Assembly: GCA_026395405.1 (NCBI GenBank)
Contig: JAPLYU010000001.1
Span: forward strand, 502,696-566,695
Length of the DNA stretch: 64,000 nt
Direction: 5' to 3'
Source: Candidatus Saccharimonadota bacterium
GTDB lineage: Bacteria > Patescibacteriota > Saccharimonadia > Saccharimonadales > Saccharimonadaceae
Below the pieces are notes generated by a model. That model had not been told where the DNA came from. It saw nothing but the letters and a program-made list of their open reading frames with translations, and made no database searches. A program made the translations under genes and the position numbers. Shown in pieces: positions 43,139 to 64,000 of the stretch (the stretch's first letter is position 1; every line of letters starts with the position of its first letter).

Positions 43139-43213
43139 TGGGGATTGGCCAAGTGGTAAGGCACGTGGTTCTGGTCCACGCATTCGGGGGTTCGGATCCC
43201 TCATCCCCAGCCA
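43139..43213 (+). tRNA. tRNA-Gln (anticodon CTG), CCA encoded
   Basis: A complete cloverleaf: acceptor TGGGGAT/ATCCCCA, D-stem GCC/GGC, anticodon stem CGTGG/CCACG with loop TTCTGGT (anticodon CTG at 43171-43173), T-stem GGGGG with CCCTC, discriminator G and a genomic CCA. It reads CAG. Its 3' end is copied exactly 229 bp downstream and degenerately several more times through 49.5 kb. Confidence 0.95.
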
Positions 43214-43471: not shown

Positions 43472-44887
43472 ATGAAATCTGTTCGCAGGTCTGATTCTTC
43501 TGGTTTTACTATTGTTGAACTTTTGGTTGTTATTGTAGTAATCGGTATTTTAGCGGCGATTACGATTGTGTCTTATGCTGGAATATCTAAAAAAGCCACT
43601 GAAGTTGGTTTGCAAACTGATCTGACAAGTGCGGCTAATAAACTTAAGATGTATTACGCAGAGTATGGTGTTTACCCGGACTCGCTTGATGGCAGTGGCT
43701 GTCCGACCGGATCGGTTACACCAGCTGATGCAAAGTATTGCGTGAAAGTTAGTCCTGGCAATACATTTTTATATTCTTCATCTAGTCCATATTCGACTTT
43801 TACTCTGAATGAGACTAATACGGCTAGTACGACAACTTACCAAATTGCTAACAACACAGCACCAATATATGTTCCGCCACACACGGGTATTTTGACGGCT
43901 TTGGGGACTCCGACAATAGCAGCTGGGGCTGGTCCATATAGTATTGTTGTATCGGCCGATGGAAGCTCGGTTTATGCCGCCAACTACAGTAATAATACGG
44001 TATCGATGTACAGCCGCAACACTAGCACTGGTTTGTTGACTGCCCTGGGTACGCCTACGATAGCAACCGGATCATATCCAATGAATCTTGCCATTTCAGC
44101 TGATGGTACCTCGGTGTATGTAGTCAACGCCGTCAGTTATACTATTTCTATGTACAGCCGTAACACTGGCACAGGTGCACTTACGGCTTTAGGTACGCCG
44201 ACGATAGCAACTGGAACGAGTCCATGGGGCGTTGCCATTTCAGCTGATGGTACCTCGGTCTATGCCGTTAACGCCAACGATAATACTATTTCGATGTACA
44301 GCCGTAACACTGGCACTGGTGCACTTACGGCCTTAGGTACGCCTACTATTGCAGATCCTACTCGGCCACGCAACATTGTCGTATCACATGATGGCTCTTC
44401 GGTATATACGGCAAATGCAACTTCAAACAATATTTCGATGTACAGCCGTAACACTGGTACAGGTGCTCTTACGGCCTTAGGTACGCCGACAATTGCAGCG
44501 GCAGGCACCCCATATAGCCTAGCAATATCAGTAGATGGATCTTCGGTTTACGCTGTCAATTCTAGCGGTGATTCCATCTCGATGTACAGCCGTAACACTG
44601 GCACTGGTGCACTTACAGCCTTAGGAACGCCGACGATAGCAGCAGGAACTACTCCGTACGGCCTGGATATATCGTCTGATGGTTCTTCGGTTTACGTTAT
44701 CAATCAAAACGGTGATTCCATATCGATGTACAGCCGCAACACCGGTACCGGTGCACTTACGGCCTTAGGTACGCCGACGATAGCAACTGGATCAAACCCA
44801 ATGACCCTAGCCATATCACCTGACGGTAATCATGTATATGCTGTGAATGGCTTCGGCAATACAATATCTATGTATGCACGCAATTAA
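43472..44887 (+). CDS. Pilin-headed seven-bladed beta-propeller surface protein
   Basis: A 471-residue protein. A type III prepilin signal ends SSG before FTIVELLVVIVVIGILA, with Glu at +5, so prepilin peptidase should cut it and the helix join a type IV pilus-like fibre. Residues 30-125 are a small pilin-like domain with two Cys. From about 135, seven repeats of about 48 residues (core ISADGTSVYAVN, linker MYSRNTGTGALTALG) form a YVTN/lactonase-like propeller. TAAACT is 6 nt before the ATG (extended TGCTAAACT), so leaderless. It is a paralogue of the next gene. Confidence 0.88.
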   Translation: MKSVRRSDSSGFTIVELLVVIVVIGILAAITIVSYAGISKKATEVGLQTDLTSAANKLKMYYAEYGVYPDSLDGSGCPTGSVTPADAKYCVKVSPGNTFLYSSSSPYSTFTLNETNTASTTTYQIANNTAPIYVPPHTGILTALGTPTIAAGAGPYSIVVSADGSSVYAANYSNNTVSMYSRNTSTGLLTALGTPTIATGSYPMNLAISADGTSVYVVNAVSYTISMYSRNTGTGALTALGTPTIATGTSPWGVAISADGTSVYAVNANDNTISMYSRNTGTGALTALGTPTIADPTRPRNIVVSHDGSSVYTANATSNNISMYSRNTGTGALTALGTPTIAAAGTPYSLAISVDGSSVYAVNSSGDSISMYSRNTGTGALTALGTPTIAAGTTPYGLDISSDGSSVYVINQNGDSISMYSRNTGTGALTALGTPTIATGSNPMTLAISPDGNHVYAVNGFGNTISMYARN

Positions 44888-46544: not shown

Positions 46545-47117
46545 CTACTTCTTGTAGGGCGCCTGCAGTTCGGGGTTGTTGACGAGTGAATCGTCGAGCA
46601 AGTACTCGAATGCCTCGGCTCTCTCCTCGCAATACCACGGACTGACCGTCTTGGACACAGGATCGCTCCTCAGAATCCAAGTCGCTTCCGAGCTGGGGGA
46701 ATGGAACAGACCATCCGGGTCCATCTGTGCTACCACCGACGACTCCCAGTGGGCCTTGTTGGCCAGCTTGTCTGGGTTGGTGTATTCGGTGGAGTAGGGG
46801 ATGGGGTAGCCCATGGACTGGCAGACGAAGGTGAACTTGCCGGTCATGGGGCTGAAGATGTACGTGTAGGTGACCAGGTGAGCCTGATCACACAACTCGT
46901 AGATTGCCTTCAGGCTCCTCTTGACCTGGAAACGCGTAATGGCCGGCATACCGACAGCGTCGTTGGCCTGCTGGGCCAGTTGCTCCTGAGCATCGTTCAT
47001 CTTCGAATCGGACGCGCTCGAGTTCCCGCAACTCTCCGCCGAACATACGACGAAAACGAGTGCGAGCAGAGCGATCACGATGGCGACAGTGTAGACGCGC
47101 TTGGACTTGAACTTCAT
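46545..47117 (-). CDS. Lipoprotein-like or membrane-anchored protein in GC-rich block
   Basis: From the ATG at 47117, preceded by AAGGGAAG, the protein has 190 residues; upstream in-frame codons overlap the previous gene and are rejected. A hydrophobic helix (about 8-25) ends VCSAESCGNSS, so it may be a signal peptide or lipoprotein-type leader. The rest is soluble with several Cys (ICDQAH, FVCQSM, WYCEE). Base composition and codon choice (GGC, CTG, GTG, CGC) are far from the AT-rich neighbours. No family is recognised; it is co-transcribed with the gene 11 nt upstream. Confidence 0.7.
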   Translation of the reverse strand: MKFKSKRVYTVAIVIALLALVFVVCSAESCGNSSASDSKMNDAQEQLAQQANDAVGMPAITRFQVKRSLKAIYELCDQAHLVTYTYIFSPMTGKFTFVCQSMGYPIPYSTEYTNPDKLANKAHWESSVVAQMDPDGLFHSPSSEATWILRSDPVSKTVSPWYCEERAEAFEYLLDDSLVNNPELQAPYKK

Positions 47118-47128
47118 GTTCTTCCCTT

Positions 47129-47536
47129 TCAGAATCCGTTGTCGGACGGGGTCGTTGAGTTCGGACCGCCGGGCTGGATGCTTTCCAGCCAAGCGCGAAG
47201 ATTGGGCGTGCAGGCATCCCAGATGCTCTGGGGCCAGTCGGCGTCGTTGTGGTTCATCAGGTCAGCGATGGCCGCTTTCTCGGCCTTGTTGTCTGTCGCC
47301 AACCATTCTGTCCACGATTGTCCAGCCTGCTGGATTTGTCCCTGCTGGAACGTCTTAGTCTGCTCGAAGATCTGGCGCTGGACGTTGGCCGTCTTGACGC
47401 CAAAGACTTTGAGCATGAAAAAGTTGTTGCCCTGCACCACCCAGGTGATGCCCAGCGCGACCACCACTATCACTAGAAAGGTGAGAATGAGGGCCACTAT
47501 GTCTGAGACACCATCTTGGTTGCGGAGTCTTTTCAC
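47129..47536 (-). CDS. Single-helix protein with Gln-rich stalk in GC-rich block
   Basis: A 135-residue protein with GTG start after a perfect GAGGAGG. The N-terminus is RLRNQDGVSDIVALI, then a single helix (about 10-33), then an amphipathic Gln-rich stretch (QTKTFQQGQIQQAGQ) and a Trp-containing C-terminal part. The short basic leader before a long hydrophobic segment resembles pilin/archaellin-type anchors, but there is no Glu at the +5 place. The encoding DNA is GC-rich, like the next gene. Function is unknown. Confidence 0.65.
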   Translation of the reverse strand: MKRLRNQDGVSDIVALILTFLVIVVVALGITWVVQGNNFFMLKVFGVKTANVQRQIFEQTKTFQQGQIQQAGQSWTEWLATDNKAEKAAIADLMNHNDADWPQSIWDACTPNLRAWLESIQPGGPNSTTPSDNGF

Positions 47537-56061: not shown

Positions 56062-57228
56062 ATGAAATATATAAAAATTATTGCCCTCAGCCTGAGTCTT
56101 GTGTTCGTGTCAACGCTGGTTTTTGTCGGCCTTGCAAGTGCACAAAGCTTCAAGGCAGGCGAGACTGTCGGAGTTGCGGCGACCGAGACGGTCAACAGTA
56201 TGTTATTCGCCGCAGGTAACAACGTTGATATTGCTGGAACGGTTAATGGCGACGTTTATTGTGCAGGTCAAACCCTGACAATCAGCGGCACGGTTAATGG
56301 TGATGTCATTTGCGCCGGACAGACCATCGTTATTAGTGGACCGGTTAATGGTAGTATCCGCGTTGCAGGACAAACCATTACCCTAAGTAACACAGTTAGT
56401 GGCAGTGCCACGATTGGCGCTCAAACACTTGTCATTGACAAAAACGCTTCAATAGGACGCGATTTGTTGGGTGGCAGTACGAACGTAACGATTAACGGCA
56501 AGGTTGGTCGTGACATAGTCGCAGGTGCGCGCGATTTGAGTATCAACGGCACGGTAGGTGGAAATATCAAAGGCGCTACTGAAAACCTAAATATCGGTTC
56601 GACCGGTCTGGTTGGCGGAAACGTCGAATATACCAGCAATAATGATCCGGTAATCGCAACCGGAGGAAAAATTGTGGGAACCGTTACTAGGACAGTTCCT
56701 AAAAAAGAATCAAAAGCAGTCCTTCTGGCACCGGCAGTATTTTCCTTCGGCTGGTTTGTCTACAGCCTAATTGCCTGGATTGTACTGGCGTTGGTGTTGG
56801 TTGCCTTGTCTCCACGTATTTTTGGCGAAGCTACAGAACTGGCCAAGAAGAAACCTGGAATAACAACCCTGATAGGCGTACTGGGCGCAATCTTGATACC
56901 GATACTAGTTGTTATGCTGTTCATTTCAATCATCGGAATGCCTCTGGCAATTCTAACTCTGCTTTTATGGTTCACGATTATGCTGTTAACCACGCCATTT
57001 GCTGGTTACATGTTGGGACAATTGATTATGCCTAAATCAAAACAGCCGTTTGGAATCATGGCGTTAGGTACTGGCATACTTGTTGTTACTTACTTTATCC
57101 CGATTATCGGCTTCTTTACATTACTGGCTGCGTATTTGTTCGGAATGGGTATGATTTTAACCCGAGGCAAACAATTACTTGAACGTGCAAAAGTTGTAAC
57201 GCTAAAGCCGAAAACTAAAAAAGCCTAA
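56062..57228 (+). CDS. Bactofilin-like domain protein with membrane helices
   Basis: A 388-residue protein. A signal peptide (about 1-28) ends at LASAQS, then about 170 residues of short beta-helical repeats with Gly-Thr-Val-Asn-Gly-Asp units (TVNGDVYCAGQTLTISG), the polymer-forming (DUF583/bactofilin) pattern, then four helices (about 220-375) and a Lys-rich tail. The polymer-like domain should be outside the cell, unlike cytoplasmic bactofilins. AAGGGAGGACGG lies before the ATG. Confidence 0.85.
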   Translation: MKYIKIIALSLSLVFVSTLVFVGLASAQSFKAGETVGVAATETVNSMLFAAGNNVDIAGTVNGDVYCAGQTLTISGTVNGDVICAGQTIVISGPVNGSIRVAGQTITLSNTVSGSATIGAQTLVIDKNASIGRDLLGGSTNVTINGKVGRDIVAGARDLSINGTVGGNIKGATENLNIGSTGLVGGNVEYTSNNDPVIATGGKIVGTVTRTVPKKESKAVLLAPAVFSFGWFVYSLIAWIVLALVLVALSPRIFGEATELAKKKPGITTLIGVLGAILIPILVVMLFISIIGMPLAILTLLLWFTIMLLTTPFAGYMLGQLIMPKSKQPFGIMALGTGILVVTYFIPIIGFFTLLAAYLFGMGMILTRGKQLLERAKVVTLKPKTKKA

Positions 57229-57243
57229 ATATAGGCATGAGAT

Positions 57244-57278
57244 AAAAAAATGGCCGGTGTCCGTGTAGGACACCGGCC
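57244..57278 (-). terminator. Strong terminator of GC-rich island 2
   Basis: On the minus strand GGCCGGTGTCC and GGACACCGGCC form an 11 bp GC-rich stem followed by ATTTTTTT. There is no T-run on the plus strand, so it terminates minus-strand transcription. Confidence 0.88.
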
Positions 57279-57345
57279 CCGGACGGTAAGAACACCGGTC
57301 CGGTTCGGAGCTAGACGGTGACGTGGGGGCCTAAGTGCAAAGGGT

Positions 57346-57546
57346 CTATTGGGGTGCTTGTACCCCTTCGATGCCAGAACACTTGGCGCAGCATACTGCC
57401 GCCGCTCCTATGACCCACGGGAGTGGGTCACTGGGGGCAGGTACGCAGGCTGACGTTTCCGTCTGCCCGGATTGTACCTGTTCTTCGCGTGACGCGGGTA
57501 AATTGCAGTCCTCGGATGCGAGGCCTACAGTTTGTACGGACACCAC
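57346..57546 (-). CDS. Uncertain Cys-containing small ORF in GC-rich island
   Basis: A 66-residue frame with GTG start. It contains five Cys (EDCN, SACVP, CCAKC) and a hydrophobic PWVIGAAAV stretch before CCAKC, which recalls small secreted or modified peptides. However, the best ribosome site here (GGGAGG, then ATG at 57557) opens a different frame of only ten codons ending at 57525. The DNA may therefore be noncoding and structured. Low confidence. Confidence 0.25.
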   Translation of the reverse strand: MVSVQTVGLASEDCNLPASREEQVQSGQTETSACVPAPSDPLPWVIGAAAVCCAKCSGIEGVQAPQ

Positions 57547-57633
57547 TTATAGTGCATTCGTCCTCCCTTGTCGAGGTTGTCACCTGACGACGTCGATGAC
57601 GTCAGGTCTGGGGGGCGCTGAGGCCGTCGGCGA

Positions 57634-57729
57634 TCACGCCGCCGCGCCGCCGCTGCCGGAGATCCAGAGGGTCGTGCTGGCGTCTAACGTTTGCATCGGG
57701 GTGAGACTCGTTCGTCGGATACGGCTCAT
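57634..57729 (-). CDS. 31-residue small ORF with perfect ribosome site
   Basis: GGAGGT lies 6 nt before the ATG, the best ribosome site in the window. The frame reads SRIRRTSLTPMQTLD with a Gly/Ala-rich end and stops at TGA 57634-57636. It is the first reading frame of the GC-rich island transcript. No family is recognised. It could be a real small protein or a leader peptide. Confidence 0.4.
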   Translation of the reverse strand: MSRIRRTSLTPMQTLDASTTLWISGSGGAAA

Positions 57730-57779
57730 ATAGCCACCTCCAGTTCGCTTCTCAAGCGGGATACTCGAGACTGAGAAAT

Positions 57780-57808
57780 ATCTTAACACAAACGTAATCA
57801 TAAGTCAA
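57780..57808 (-). promoter_or_regulatory. Promoter of GC-rich island 2
   Basis: On the minus strand TTGACT (57808-57803) and TAAGAT (57785-57780) are 17 bp apart. It is back to back with the leaderless promoter of the gene at 57829. Confidence 0.65.
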
Positions 57809-57828: not shown

Positions 57829-57984
57829 ATGAATAAAGATTGGCATCAAAAAAACAGAATGCCCGTTAACGCTACGGATGAACAGAGGGCAAAGTGGCAT
57901 ATCGAACATCTAAAAAACTGCGATTGCCGAAAACCAACAGCAAATATCCAAAAACTGATTGATAAGTATCGGGCAGAAAAGTAA
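57829..57984 (+). CDS. Small His/Cys protein, conserved-hypothetical type
   Basis: A 51-residue protein: NKDWHQKNRMPVNATDEQR, then AKWHIEHLKNCDCRKP and a Lys-rich helix. The WHxxHxxNCxCR centre could bind a metal. Very similar short proteins with MPxNATxEQR and WHxxHxxNCxCR are, as I recall, common conserved hypotheticals in Patescibacteria. TGTATAAT ends 6 nt before the ATG, so leaderless, which supports a real gene. Confidence 0.7.
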   Translation: MNKDWHQKNRMPVNATDEQRAKWHIEHLKNCDCRKPTANIQKLIDKYRAEK

Positions 57985-58006
57985 TAACTCGGCTATAATA
58001 GAGGTA

Positions 58007-58648
58007 ATGGTTAAATCCGACTCCAATAAGCCTGTAGTAAAAATAGTTGAAGAGATTTTTAACAGTATCACGCACGGACTCGGGGCGATTGCCGCAATAG
58101 TGGGGCTGGTATTAGGAGTTATCTTGATGGTCTCATCAATATCATTCAAGGTGGGATTTATTATCTATGCGTCCAGTCTGATAATTTTGATGCTGTCATC
58201 AACGCTATATCACGCGTTGGCGTTTACAAAAGCGAACAAAGTATTCCAGGCAATCGACCATAGCAGTATTTTTATACTTATCGCCGGCAGTTTCACGCCG
58301 TTTATTATTTATTTATACAAAGGATGGGCTGAGGTGTTTTTTTTGTCTGCGGTTTGGCTGATTGCCGCCACTGGAATCGCTGTTACGACCACGCTAGTTC
58401 TTCCCAGAAAAATGAAATTAACAGGAGTAATATTGTACATAGGTTTTGGTTGGATGGGAATTTTCTTAATCCCGAAAATGGGGTTGGTCAGCTCAACAGT
58501 TATATGGCTGCTGATTATCGGAGGGGTATTGTATACGGTCGGGACCATACCTTTTGCCTTTAAAAAACCTTTTGCACATTTTTCTTGGCATTTATTCGTA
58601 ATTGCTGCTGCTGCCTTTCAATTTTTCGCAATTATTAAGTTAGCTTAG
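58007..58648 (+). CDS. Hemolysin III family membrane protein (PAQR)
   Basis: A 213-residue protein from the ATG 7 nt after TATAAT. EEIFNSITHGLGAIAA begins the family signature, followed by seven helices with conserved SSTLYHAL, AIDHSSIFILIAGSFTPF and the final SWHLFVIAAAAFQFFAI. His residues in the helices form a zinc site in PAQR proteins. The physiological role in bacteria is unclear (membrane fluidity or lipid hydrolase). The upstream frame start at 57959 is rejected because it lies before the promoter. Confidence 0.9.
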   Translation: MVKSDSNKPVVKIVEEIFNSITHGLGAIAAIVGLVLGVILMVSSISFKVGFIIYASSLIILMLSSTLYHALAFTKANKVFQAIDHSSIFILIAGSFTPFIIYLYKGWAEVFFLSAVWLIAATGIAVTTTLVLPRKMKLTGVILYIGFGWMGIFLIPKMGLVSSTVIWLLIIGGVLYTVGTIPFAFKKPFAHFSWHLFVIAAAAFQFFAIIKLA

Positions 58649-61702: not shown

Positions 61703-64000
61703 GTGAAAAAAATCGCCGCTAGGGGATACACCGTAATAGAACTGGTAGTGGTAGTCGCTATTATTGGAGTACTAGCAGCGATAACAATTGTCGGATATTC
61801 TTCTGTGCAACAGGGAGCTAGAAATACTCAGCGATCTACGGGTTTAGTAGCTGTCTCGGAGTCACTTGAAAAATATTATATTAAAAACGGAGAATATCCA
61901 TCCTGTGCTGCGATTGTTTCGCCACAAACACCAACCCAAGTTGTAGCTAACACTTTGGTTGGACTTGACCCAACTGATTTGACATCTCCAACAGATGCCG
62001 CTAACACAAATTCATTAACATGTGCAGACCCAACAACTCCCGCACAGTATGGTTATGTTGGAGGATTAACAACTTATACTCTGAAATACAAAGAGGAAGG
62101 TGGTGGAGTTAAGGTTGCAGCTGTGGCACGACATACGGTGCCATCATCAAACTTTACTTTGGCAGTAAGGGTTGATCCTACAACTCCGTGGGGCAGCGTT
62201 AGTGGCGGCGGTTCATTCGTATCCGGAGCAACGCCAACTATAACGGCGGCGCCTGGCTCATGGTATTCTTTCGATAAGTGGAACACGAGTGCAGATACAT
62301 GGCCCTCAAGTGCAACAGATTGCTATTCACCCACAAATACGGCTAGTCACACCGTTACTATAGACACTCACAAGACTTGTGTTGCGAAATTCAAGGTTAC
62401 ACCCGTAACAGCACCTTCGACACCTACGGTTTCACAAAATACCGTTGGTGCAACCACGACCTGGTCCTGGGGCGTTGCTAGCTGTAGTGGCGGTAACACG
62501 CCTCAGTATAGATATGAATATACAATTCAACCATCAGGTTTTGATTCAGGTTGGGTAGGCACTGGAACACCTTCGGTAGCGTTAACTACTTCAACCGAAG
62601 GTCAAACTTACGACATTGCGGTTCAGGCTCAATGTGCCAACCCGGTAACGACCAGTGCCTGGAGTGCATCAAGTGCATCGAGTCCTTATTATCGAGCGGT
62701 GACAACACCGACAATCTCGGCTACAACGGCGTCCAGTACATCAATTGACGTATCTTGGCCAGCTAACTCATTTGCAATCAGTTACACGATGGACCGGTCA
62801 CTTAGTTCATCGTTTACTAGCCCAACGACGATTACACAGGCGGGTACGACATATACGTCAACGGGATTAGCCCAAGGTACAACATATTATTTCCGAGTTA
62901 AAACAAATGCCGGTAGTGGGTCCAGTGCTTATTCAACCACGGCAAATGCAACTACAACGATTGATCCTTGTACGGTGCCGGTAGACAATGCCAACACCGT
63001 AGGCGCTACCACAACCTGGACATGGAGCGCCCCAACTTGTCCTGGCGGAACATCTATCCGCTACCAATATCGTTATACAATTACGCCGTCCATGTTTGAC
63101 TCCGGTTGGACGGCAACAGCCGGAACATCAGTTGCATTTACGACATCATCCCAGGGACAAACATATAATGTGGCTTTGCAAGCCCAAGCCTACATCGGGG
63201 GAGTATCAAGTGCCTGGACTGCATCTGACAACGATAGTTATTACAGACCTAATACATATCTGTTAACTATAAATGCTGGTGCTAATGGTACGGTTAATGC
63301 AGGTGGTACGTATGATGAAGCAACAAACCAGACAATTACAGCCACACCAAATACATACTATTCATTCAGTAGCTGGACTGGAAGCACGGGGTGTAGTGGT
63401 ATAGCCAGCCATACCATACTCATGGATGCCGCCAAGACATGTACGGCCAACTTTACGCCTACCCCAATCTCTGCACCATCTGCTCCAACCGTTTCACAAA
63501 ATACCGTTGGTGCAACTACAACTTGGTCATGGGGCGCAGTATCTTGCCCGGGGAACTCTGTTAGGTATCAATACCGCAACACAAATGCTCCATCTGGATT
63601 CGACAGTGGTTGGGTTGGACCGCAAGCCGGAACCACTGTTGCACTTACTACCAGCACCGCTGGACAAACCTATACCGTGGCGGTCCAAGCCCAGTGTTAC
63701 AATACAGCTACTAGCAGCAGTTGGAGCGGATCTGGTTCGGCCGGATACTACAGCCCGTATTACACGCTAACCCTTGTTGCTGGAACATATGTCGGAATTA
63801 TCAGTGGCGGTGGTTCATCATATAGCTACAACGATACCGTCACAATGACTGCAGGCCCTGTCCAGACATATTACGAATGGGTAGGTTGGTCTGGCGATGT
63901 TGGGTGTAATGGTCTTATAAGCCATACAATAACTATGAACGCGAACAAAACATGCACAGCCTACGCTGATGCCGGGGTAGGCTGGTATCCTGGGCAGGGA
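61703..64000 (+). CDS. Long pilin-headed adhesin with repeated domains, cut by window end
   Basis: A GTG-started frame stays open for 766 codons to the last base. AAGGAATTAATTT precedes it. The N-terminus has a prepilin signal (AARG before YTVIELVVVVAIIGVLA, Glu at +5) and a pilin-like part (about 35-125). Then alternate InlB-type beta units (SGGGSFVSGATPTITAAPGS; AGANGTVNAGGTYDEATN; ends CVAKF/CTANF) and fibronectin-like units beginning VSQNTVGATTTWSWG, each with a Cys. At least three copies of each are visible. This is a modular surface adhesin; the C-terminus is outside the window. Confidence 0.88.
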   Translation, partial: MKKIAARGYTVIELVVVVAIIGVLAAITIVGYSSVQQGARNTQRSTGLVAVSESLEKYYIKNGEYPSCAAIVSPQTPTQVVANTLVGLDPTDLTSPTDAANTNSLTCADPTTPAQYGYVGGLTTYTLKYKEEGGGVKVAAVARHTVPSSNFTLAVRVDPTTPWGSVSGGGSFVSGATPTITAAPGSWYSFDKWNTSADTWPSSATDCYSPTNTASHTVTIDTHKTCVAKFKVTPVTAPSTPTVSQNTVGATTTWSWGVASCSGGNTPQYRYEYTIQPSGFDSGWVGTGTPSVALTTSTEGQTYDIAVQAQCANPVTTSAWSASSASSPYYRAVTTPTISATTASSTSIDVSWPANSFAISYTMDRSLSSSFTSPTTITQAGTTYTSTGLAQGTTYYFRVKTNAGSGSSAYSTTANATTTIDPCTVPVDNANTVGATTTWTWSAPTCPGGTSIRYQYRYTITPSMFDSGWTATAGTSVAFTTSSQGQTYNVALQAQAYIGGVSSAWTASDNDSYYRPNTYLLTINAGANGTVNAGGTYDEATNQTITATPNTYYSFSSWTGSTGCSGIASHTILMDAAKTCTANFTPTPISAPSAPTVSQNTVGATTTWSWGAVSCPGNSVRYQYRNTNAPSGFDSGWVGPQAGTTVALTTSTAGQTYTVAVQAQCYNTATSSSWSGSGSAGYYSPYYTLTLVAGTYVGIISGGGSSYSYNDTVTMTAGPVQTYYEWVGWSGDVGCNGLISHTITMNANKTCTAYADAGVGWYPGQG

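Follow-up and report, generated by a model that had tools for sequence, protein, structure and literature searches.

Genomic setting of a GC-rich island

The window analyzed here is a stretch of 64,000 nucleotides from an 855-kb genome (G000; four contigs, 97% complete, GC content about 41%). The relatives of this organism have genomes of 0.5-1.6 Mb, and two of them are lake metagenome bins, as would suit a Patescibacteria-like lineage. On the minus strand of the window, at 57808-57244, we found a unit composed of a clade-typical promoter, a GC-rich region of approximately 525 nt and an intrinsic terminator. The contrast between a GC-rich island and AT-rich surroundings, noted in an earlier sequence-only reading, is clear (0.61 vs about 0.41). 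The predicted noncoding transcript would extend from 57773 to 57244 (about 525-530 nt); its fold energy, its ortholog in a relative (G017) and the retention of structure beyond neutral expectation all point to it.

The neighbors of the island are cellular genes. The unit is divergent from a gene for a small protein of 51 amino acids with a CDC motif (57829-57984, plus strand), whose start faces the promoter of the unit, and from the HlyIII gene beyond it (57992-58648, plus strand). On the terminator side, it is convergent with a bactofilin-like gene (56062-57228, plus strand). There is no downstream gene inside the unit, and the element is present in one copy in the genome. The 51-aa protein, which contains MNKDWHQKNRMP and then HIEHLKNCDCRKP, is conserved in G017 (82%) and in a second relative, G024 (67%), was present in only three of 28 genus genomes, and had no confident match in a family search.

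Other features of the window include a single tRNA, at 43139, and six imperfect 144-bp tandem repeats at 44003-44874 (plus strand) within a 471-codon open reading frame. A large open frame at 61703-64000 (plus strand) has an N-terminus like that of type IV pilins (GYTVIELVVVVAIIGVLAA), continues with long repeated extracellular-type domains and runs off the window.

Promoter and terminators

The unit has the signals that the sequence-only reading had placed at its two ends. The promoter, TTGACT-17-TAAGAT at 57808-57780 (minus strand), has an extended -10 element (TTTGTG), with TG ahead of the -10, and is kept in G017. Allowing up to two mismatches, we found the promoter pattern TATTGACTTNNNATTACGTTTGTG in 52 of 295 family genomes, compared to none with a reversed-pattern control. 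In the two loci that were read (G034 and G030), the pattern is upstream of unrelated genes. Within G000, it occurs only at this locus, even with up to three mismatches. The promoter is of a lineage-wide type. Its conserved form, TATTGACTTTTYATTACGTTTGTGnTAwAAT, precedes unrelated genes elsewhere in the family (e.g., L032:2711-2741 and L033:2738-2770), and could serve to locate strongly expressed units in this lineage.

At the other end, an intrinsic terminator with an 11-bp stem (nine GC pairs) and a run of seven Ts is located at 57278-57244. A second terminator-like hairpin, GCCTATATTTAGGC-T6 (57236-57217, minus strand), overlaps the end of the bactofilin gene. This second hairpin is also found in G017, where the first stem has no adjacent T-run. 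Promoter and terminator are both in the minus-strand orientation, and we infer that the transcript is made and is stable.

Relatives of the element

The element has an ortholog in G017 (L031:3200-3780), between the same neighbors and with a promoter and terminator. Identity between the two species is 62% in the element, compared to about 71% at the DNA level in the flanking genes. A third locus, in G024 (L057:1648-1853), has the same bactofilin and small-protein genes separated by a 206-bp spacer (38% GC) instead of the element. The element was therefore either gained before G000 and G017 split or lost in G024. The AT-rich spacer in G024 contains TATAAT-like and hairpin-like stretches, and may be an empty site or a relic.

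Several searches defined the distribution of the element. G017 was the sole homolog in a DNA search of 60 relatives, and a 24-mer pattern in the 295 family genomes identified G000 and G017, plus two other matches with three mismatches. A search of GTDB contigs with HlyIII recovered the G017 and G024 loci only. A covariance model run against 28 genus, 374 family and 380 phylum genomes found no third member, with a first-look filter that may miss very diverged copies. Four patterns had no real match in viral contigs, and blastn against phages and plasmids gave only chance matches of 27-40 nt.

The sequence-only reading had noted that the GGGAGGACGAA start resembles a sequence in a first GC-rich block of the window, and had taken this as a hint of a common donor for the two islands. 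The likeness is real; it is uninformative, since the native AT-rich neighbor at 56062 carries ...aagggaggacgggATG. A common donor is not supported: the same Shine-Dalgarno sequence precedes a native gene, the first block appears to encode protein, and the ortholog in G017 means that the element is not a recent arrival in G000. The first island (46545-47536, minus strand) differs in kind from the RNA island and is probably foreign. It contains a lipoprotein-like ORF (46545-47192) that matches PHROG 24725 (E = 1.3e-27) and a protein of Synechococcus phage S-SRM01 (42% over 131 aa), adjoined by a small membrane protein (47129-47536).

The fold and its conservation

The hairpins of the island go beyond chance. 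The minimum free energy of the element is -234.6 kcal/mol (z = -6.45), and none of 100 dinucleotide shuffles was as low, indicating that GC content does not explain the fold. The element was also the lowest of 120 sampled 530-nt windows and strands (z about -6; grid mean -0.5, sd 1.2), and a further z value of -5.6 supports the fold.

We compared the fold in G017 to neutral expectation by relocating or permuting the observed substitutions on the G000 sequence (400 replicates each). The G017 element folds at -199.9 kcal/mol, below all 400 replicates of both nulls, which gave -160.3 (sd 7.0) and -163.5 (sd 6.4) kcal/mol. The same test on the flanking genes gave z values of -1.3 to +0.4 on five strands and -3.2 on the sixth.

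Counting pairs on a plain MAFFT sequence alignment gave no excess, which we attribute to alignment errors in indel-rich stretches. Because this alignment had no signal, we wrote a Sankoff-type structure-aware aligner and ran it alongside 100 neutral simulations. It found 135 shared pairs with a score of 41152, compared to 28634 in the simulations (sd 3606, maximum 36749). There were 82 identically kept pairs, compared to 36-42 in the simulations. The aligner produces double changes even in simulated data (64 on average), so the 41 observed are not evidence by themselves; the score and the identically kept pairs are. In addition, a covariance model built from G000 57481-57307 alone found G017 at 78 bits. 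In the alignment of this 3' domain, which was fitted to the structure and so inflates the pairing numbers, 98.2% of the cells pair and 12 pairs are changed on both sides. None of 500 shuffles equaled this, and slid structures reached only 35-43% pairing.

Covarying stems, the kind of evidence for an RNA named in the sequence-only reading, were seen in G017 in one pairwise comparison; two homologs are too few for statistics of the R-scape type. Judged by these sequence comparisons, structure is conserved in the homolog beyond neutral expectation. The large structured RNA that had been one of two suggestions for the island gains support from the conserved promoter and terminator, the retention of the fold across 38% divergence and the covarying helices.

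Both strands of the element fold stably, the opposite strand as stably as the minus strand, and in G017 the opposite strand reaches a z of -9.7. Together with the presence or absence of the element at one locus, this could indicate a structured element that acts as DNA rather than an RNA gene, for example a mobile or recombination site that folds as a single strand. We consider this very improbable. The shared-structure score clearly favors the minus strand (41152 vs 32451 on the opposite strand), and six one-sided, wobble-preserving changes in the 3' domain pair only there (e.g., A-U to G-U, and C-G to U-G in the UCCC hairpin). Promoter and terminator point in the same direction, in agreement with this preference. 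The element has a single genomic copy, and no phage, plasmid or viral relatives were found in the searches described above.

Anatomy of the predicted RNA

All positions below are on the minus strand, from 5' to 3'. In the 5' hairpin, H1 (TCTCGAG / CTTGAGA, 57770-57750), an A-U pair has become G-C in G017 by a double change. The 31-codon frame follows (57741-57634, including its Shine-Dalgarno sequence), and its stop codon is in a hairpin, CGGCG-TGAT-CGCCG (57641-57628), that has a counterpart in G017. The next hairpin, CCTGACG...CGTCAGG (57606-57583), corresponds to TGACCC...GGGTCA in G017. A GCAY hairpin that changes on both sides in G017 (C-G to U-A style) lies under a ten-codon ORF with its GGGAGG (57567-57525).

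This region includes a 12-mer, TGGTGTCCGTAC (57545-57534), that is the same in both species. Nowhere in the RNA is there a better complement to it than the 3' arm of the terminator, again in both species (9/12 and 10/12). On this complementarity, the 12-mer could close off the 3' part of the RNA or hinder the terminator.

Further downstream, a two-tier hairpin (57480-57438; helices 1 and 2) has been heavily rewritten and is re-paired in G017, with seven double changes. It is followed by a 9-bp hairpin (57431-57410; helix 3) whose stem covaries and whose UCCC loop (57422-57419) is invariant in both species. At 62% identity, a four-base loop would be invariant by chance about one time in seven. 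The AGGAG that comes after this hairpin makes an H-type pseudoknot possible. The 3' domain (57408-57307; helices 4-7) consists of an outer helix, GGAGC-GGCGG ... CCGTC-TA-GCTCC, around a long arm with conserved internal loops.

Short reading frames

The three short frames described in the sequence-only reading are all present: a 31-codon ORF with GGAGGT, a ten-codon ORF with GGGAGG and a Cys-rich 66-codon frame. The second suggestion in that reading was that the unit encodes small peptides, secreted or modified. Two of the three have good Shine-Dalgarno sequences. None of them had a convincing protein family match, and they are not conserved as protein. The ten-codon ORF (MHYKWCPYKL, 57557-57525) lies over a compensatory hairpin, with the change from CAC..GTG to CAT..ATG falling on the two sides of one helix, and its Shine-Dalgarno sequence and stop position are lost in G017. 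The 66-codon frame, with five Cys (57546-57346), is rewritten in G017, and we consider it accidental. We therefore rejected the peptide unit, which we regard as the least probable of the explanations considered here, with hardly any chance of being correct.

The 31-codon frame (ATG at 57729, stop ending at 57634) has a somewhat better case. Its Shine-Dalgarno sequence (GGAGGTG, 57741-57735), start and stop position are common to both species, and the sole indel in the well-aligned part is 3 nt. This would fit a dual-function RNA, in which the frame is translated and important and the structured remainder acts as RNA. The differences between the two species are not those of a conserved peptide: 17 of the 18 differing codons are nonsynonymous and one is synonymous, the differences are distributed 13/11/6 over the codon positions, and frame 0 is aligned no better than the other frames. 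In addition, the Shine-Dalgarno sequence can pair with a downstream CACC in both species. A dual function seems improbable to us.

Proposed function

With the peptide reading set aside, the island is probably a structured noncoding RNA that acts in trans. Since no other gene follows within the unit, regulation in cis is unlikely, and the RNA most likely acts in trans. We propose that an independent gene, with its own lineage-type promoter and one or more terminators, would produce a structured RNA of approximately 525 nt. The covarying stems would present conserved unpaired stretches, namely the UCCC loop and the 12-mer. The C-rich loop might then pair with Shine-Dalgarno sequences of target mRNAs, in the style of Staphylococcus RNAIII, and the adjacent AGGAG could hold the loop back as a pseudoknot. 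Of the 39 window genes that were sampled, 12 had a Shine-Dalgarno core, compared to a background of 7%. A large riboregulator of the RNAIII style, with its UCCC loop aimed at Shine-Dalgarno sequences, is a weak guess that we hold tentatively; we put it forward as a working guess for the simple, testable prediction that it offers.

The same RNA might instead be an architectural or protein-scaffold RNA, forming an OLE-, ROOL- or GOLLD-like ribonucleoprotein or an RNA-only particle without antisense pairing. This is a serious alternative, although on balance we think it unlikely. It fits the size of the element, its own transcription unit, the conserved internal loops in the 3' domain, and the fast change of sequence under a kept fold (62% in the element, compared to about 71% in the flanking genes). 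OLE, ROOL and GOLLD likewise reportedly keep their stems without high sequence conservation (PMC12286853). However, the element had no Rfam match to such classes, is not associated with phage or tRNA islands, and has no identified partner protein. It is conceivable, though doubtful, that the element is the first representative of a new class of large, ornate RNAs in a lineage with small genomes (Patescibacteria-like), and that it works as an RNA machine or particle rather than as an ordinary antisense regulator. Keeping a half-kilobase RNA in a genome of 855 kb suggests a function worth its length, and the covariance model is now supplied for seeking relatives in metagenomes.

Comparison with known RNAs

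A search of Rfam 15 gave no match at the gathering score, and raising E to 10 returned only six short sub-threshold matches. We found nothing relevant in the literature on structured RNAs in Saccharibacteria, Patescibacteria or candidate phyla. To our knowledge, only a few bacterial noncoding RNAs combine a length above 500 nt with a complex fold, and most of these are unexplained. RNase P RNA and tmRNA resemble the element as large structured housekeeping RNAs; identity with either was rejected, as the true genes are elsewhere in the genome (G000:C2, 265 and 106 bits).

RNAIII of Staphylococcus aureus is about 514 nt long. The likeness to the element is that of a large multi-hairpin RNA from a free-standing unit that has UCCC in a hairpin loop and carries, near the 5' part, a short ORF and its Shine-Dalgarno sequence. 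UCCC is the motif by which RNAIII-type RNAs bind ribosome-binding sites (PMC2837412). In contrast to RNAIII, the element has one conserved UCCC loop only, no sequence or Rfam match, an ORF whose peptide is not conserved, and no known targets or quorum-sensing locus.

ROOL and GOLLD occur in prophages or phages, frequently close to tRNA islands, whereas the element is not near phage genes or tRNA islands and had no viral matches. It has no covariance-model match to OLE, ROOL or GOLLD and two members only, but it shares with them a size class, an elaborate fold and the drift of sequence under a kept structure (PMC12286853). On the sequence evidence, we regard the element as a genuine large structured RNA that is restricted to this lineage and has two known members; its sequence family is new, and its general kind is familiar.
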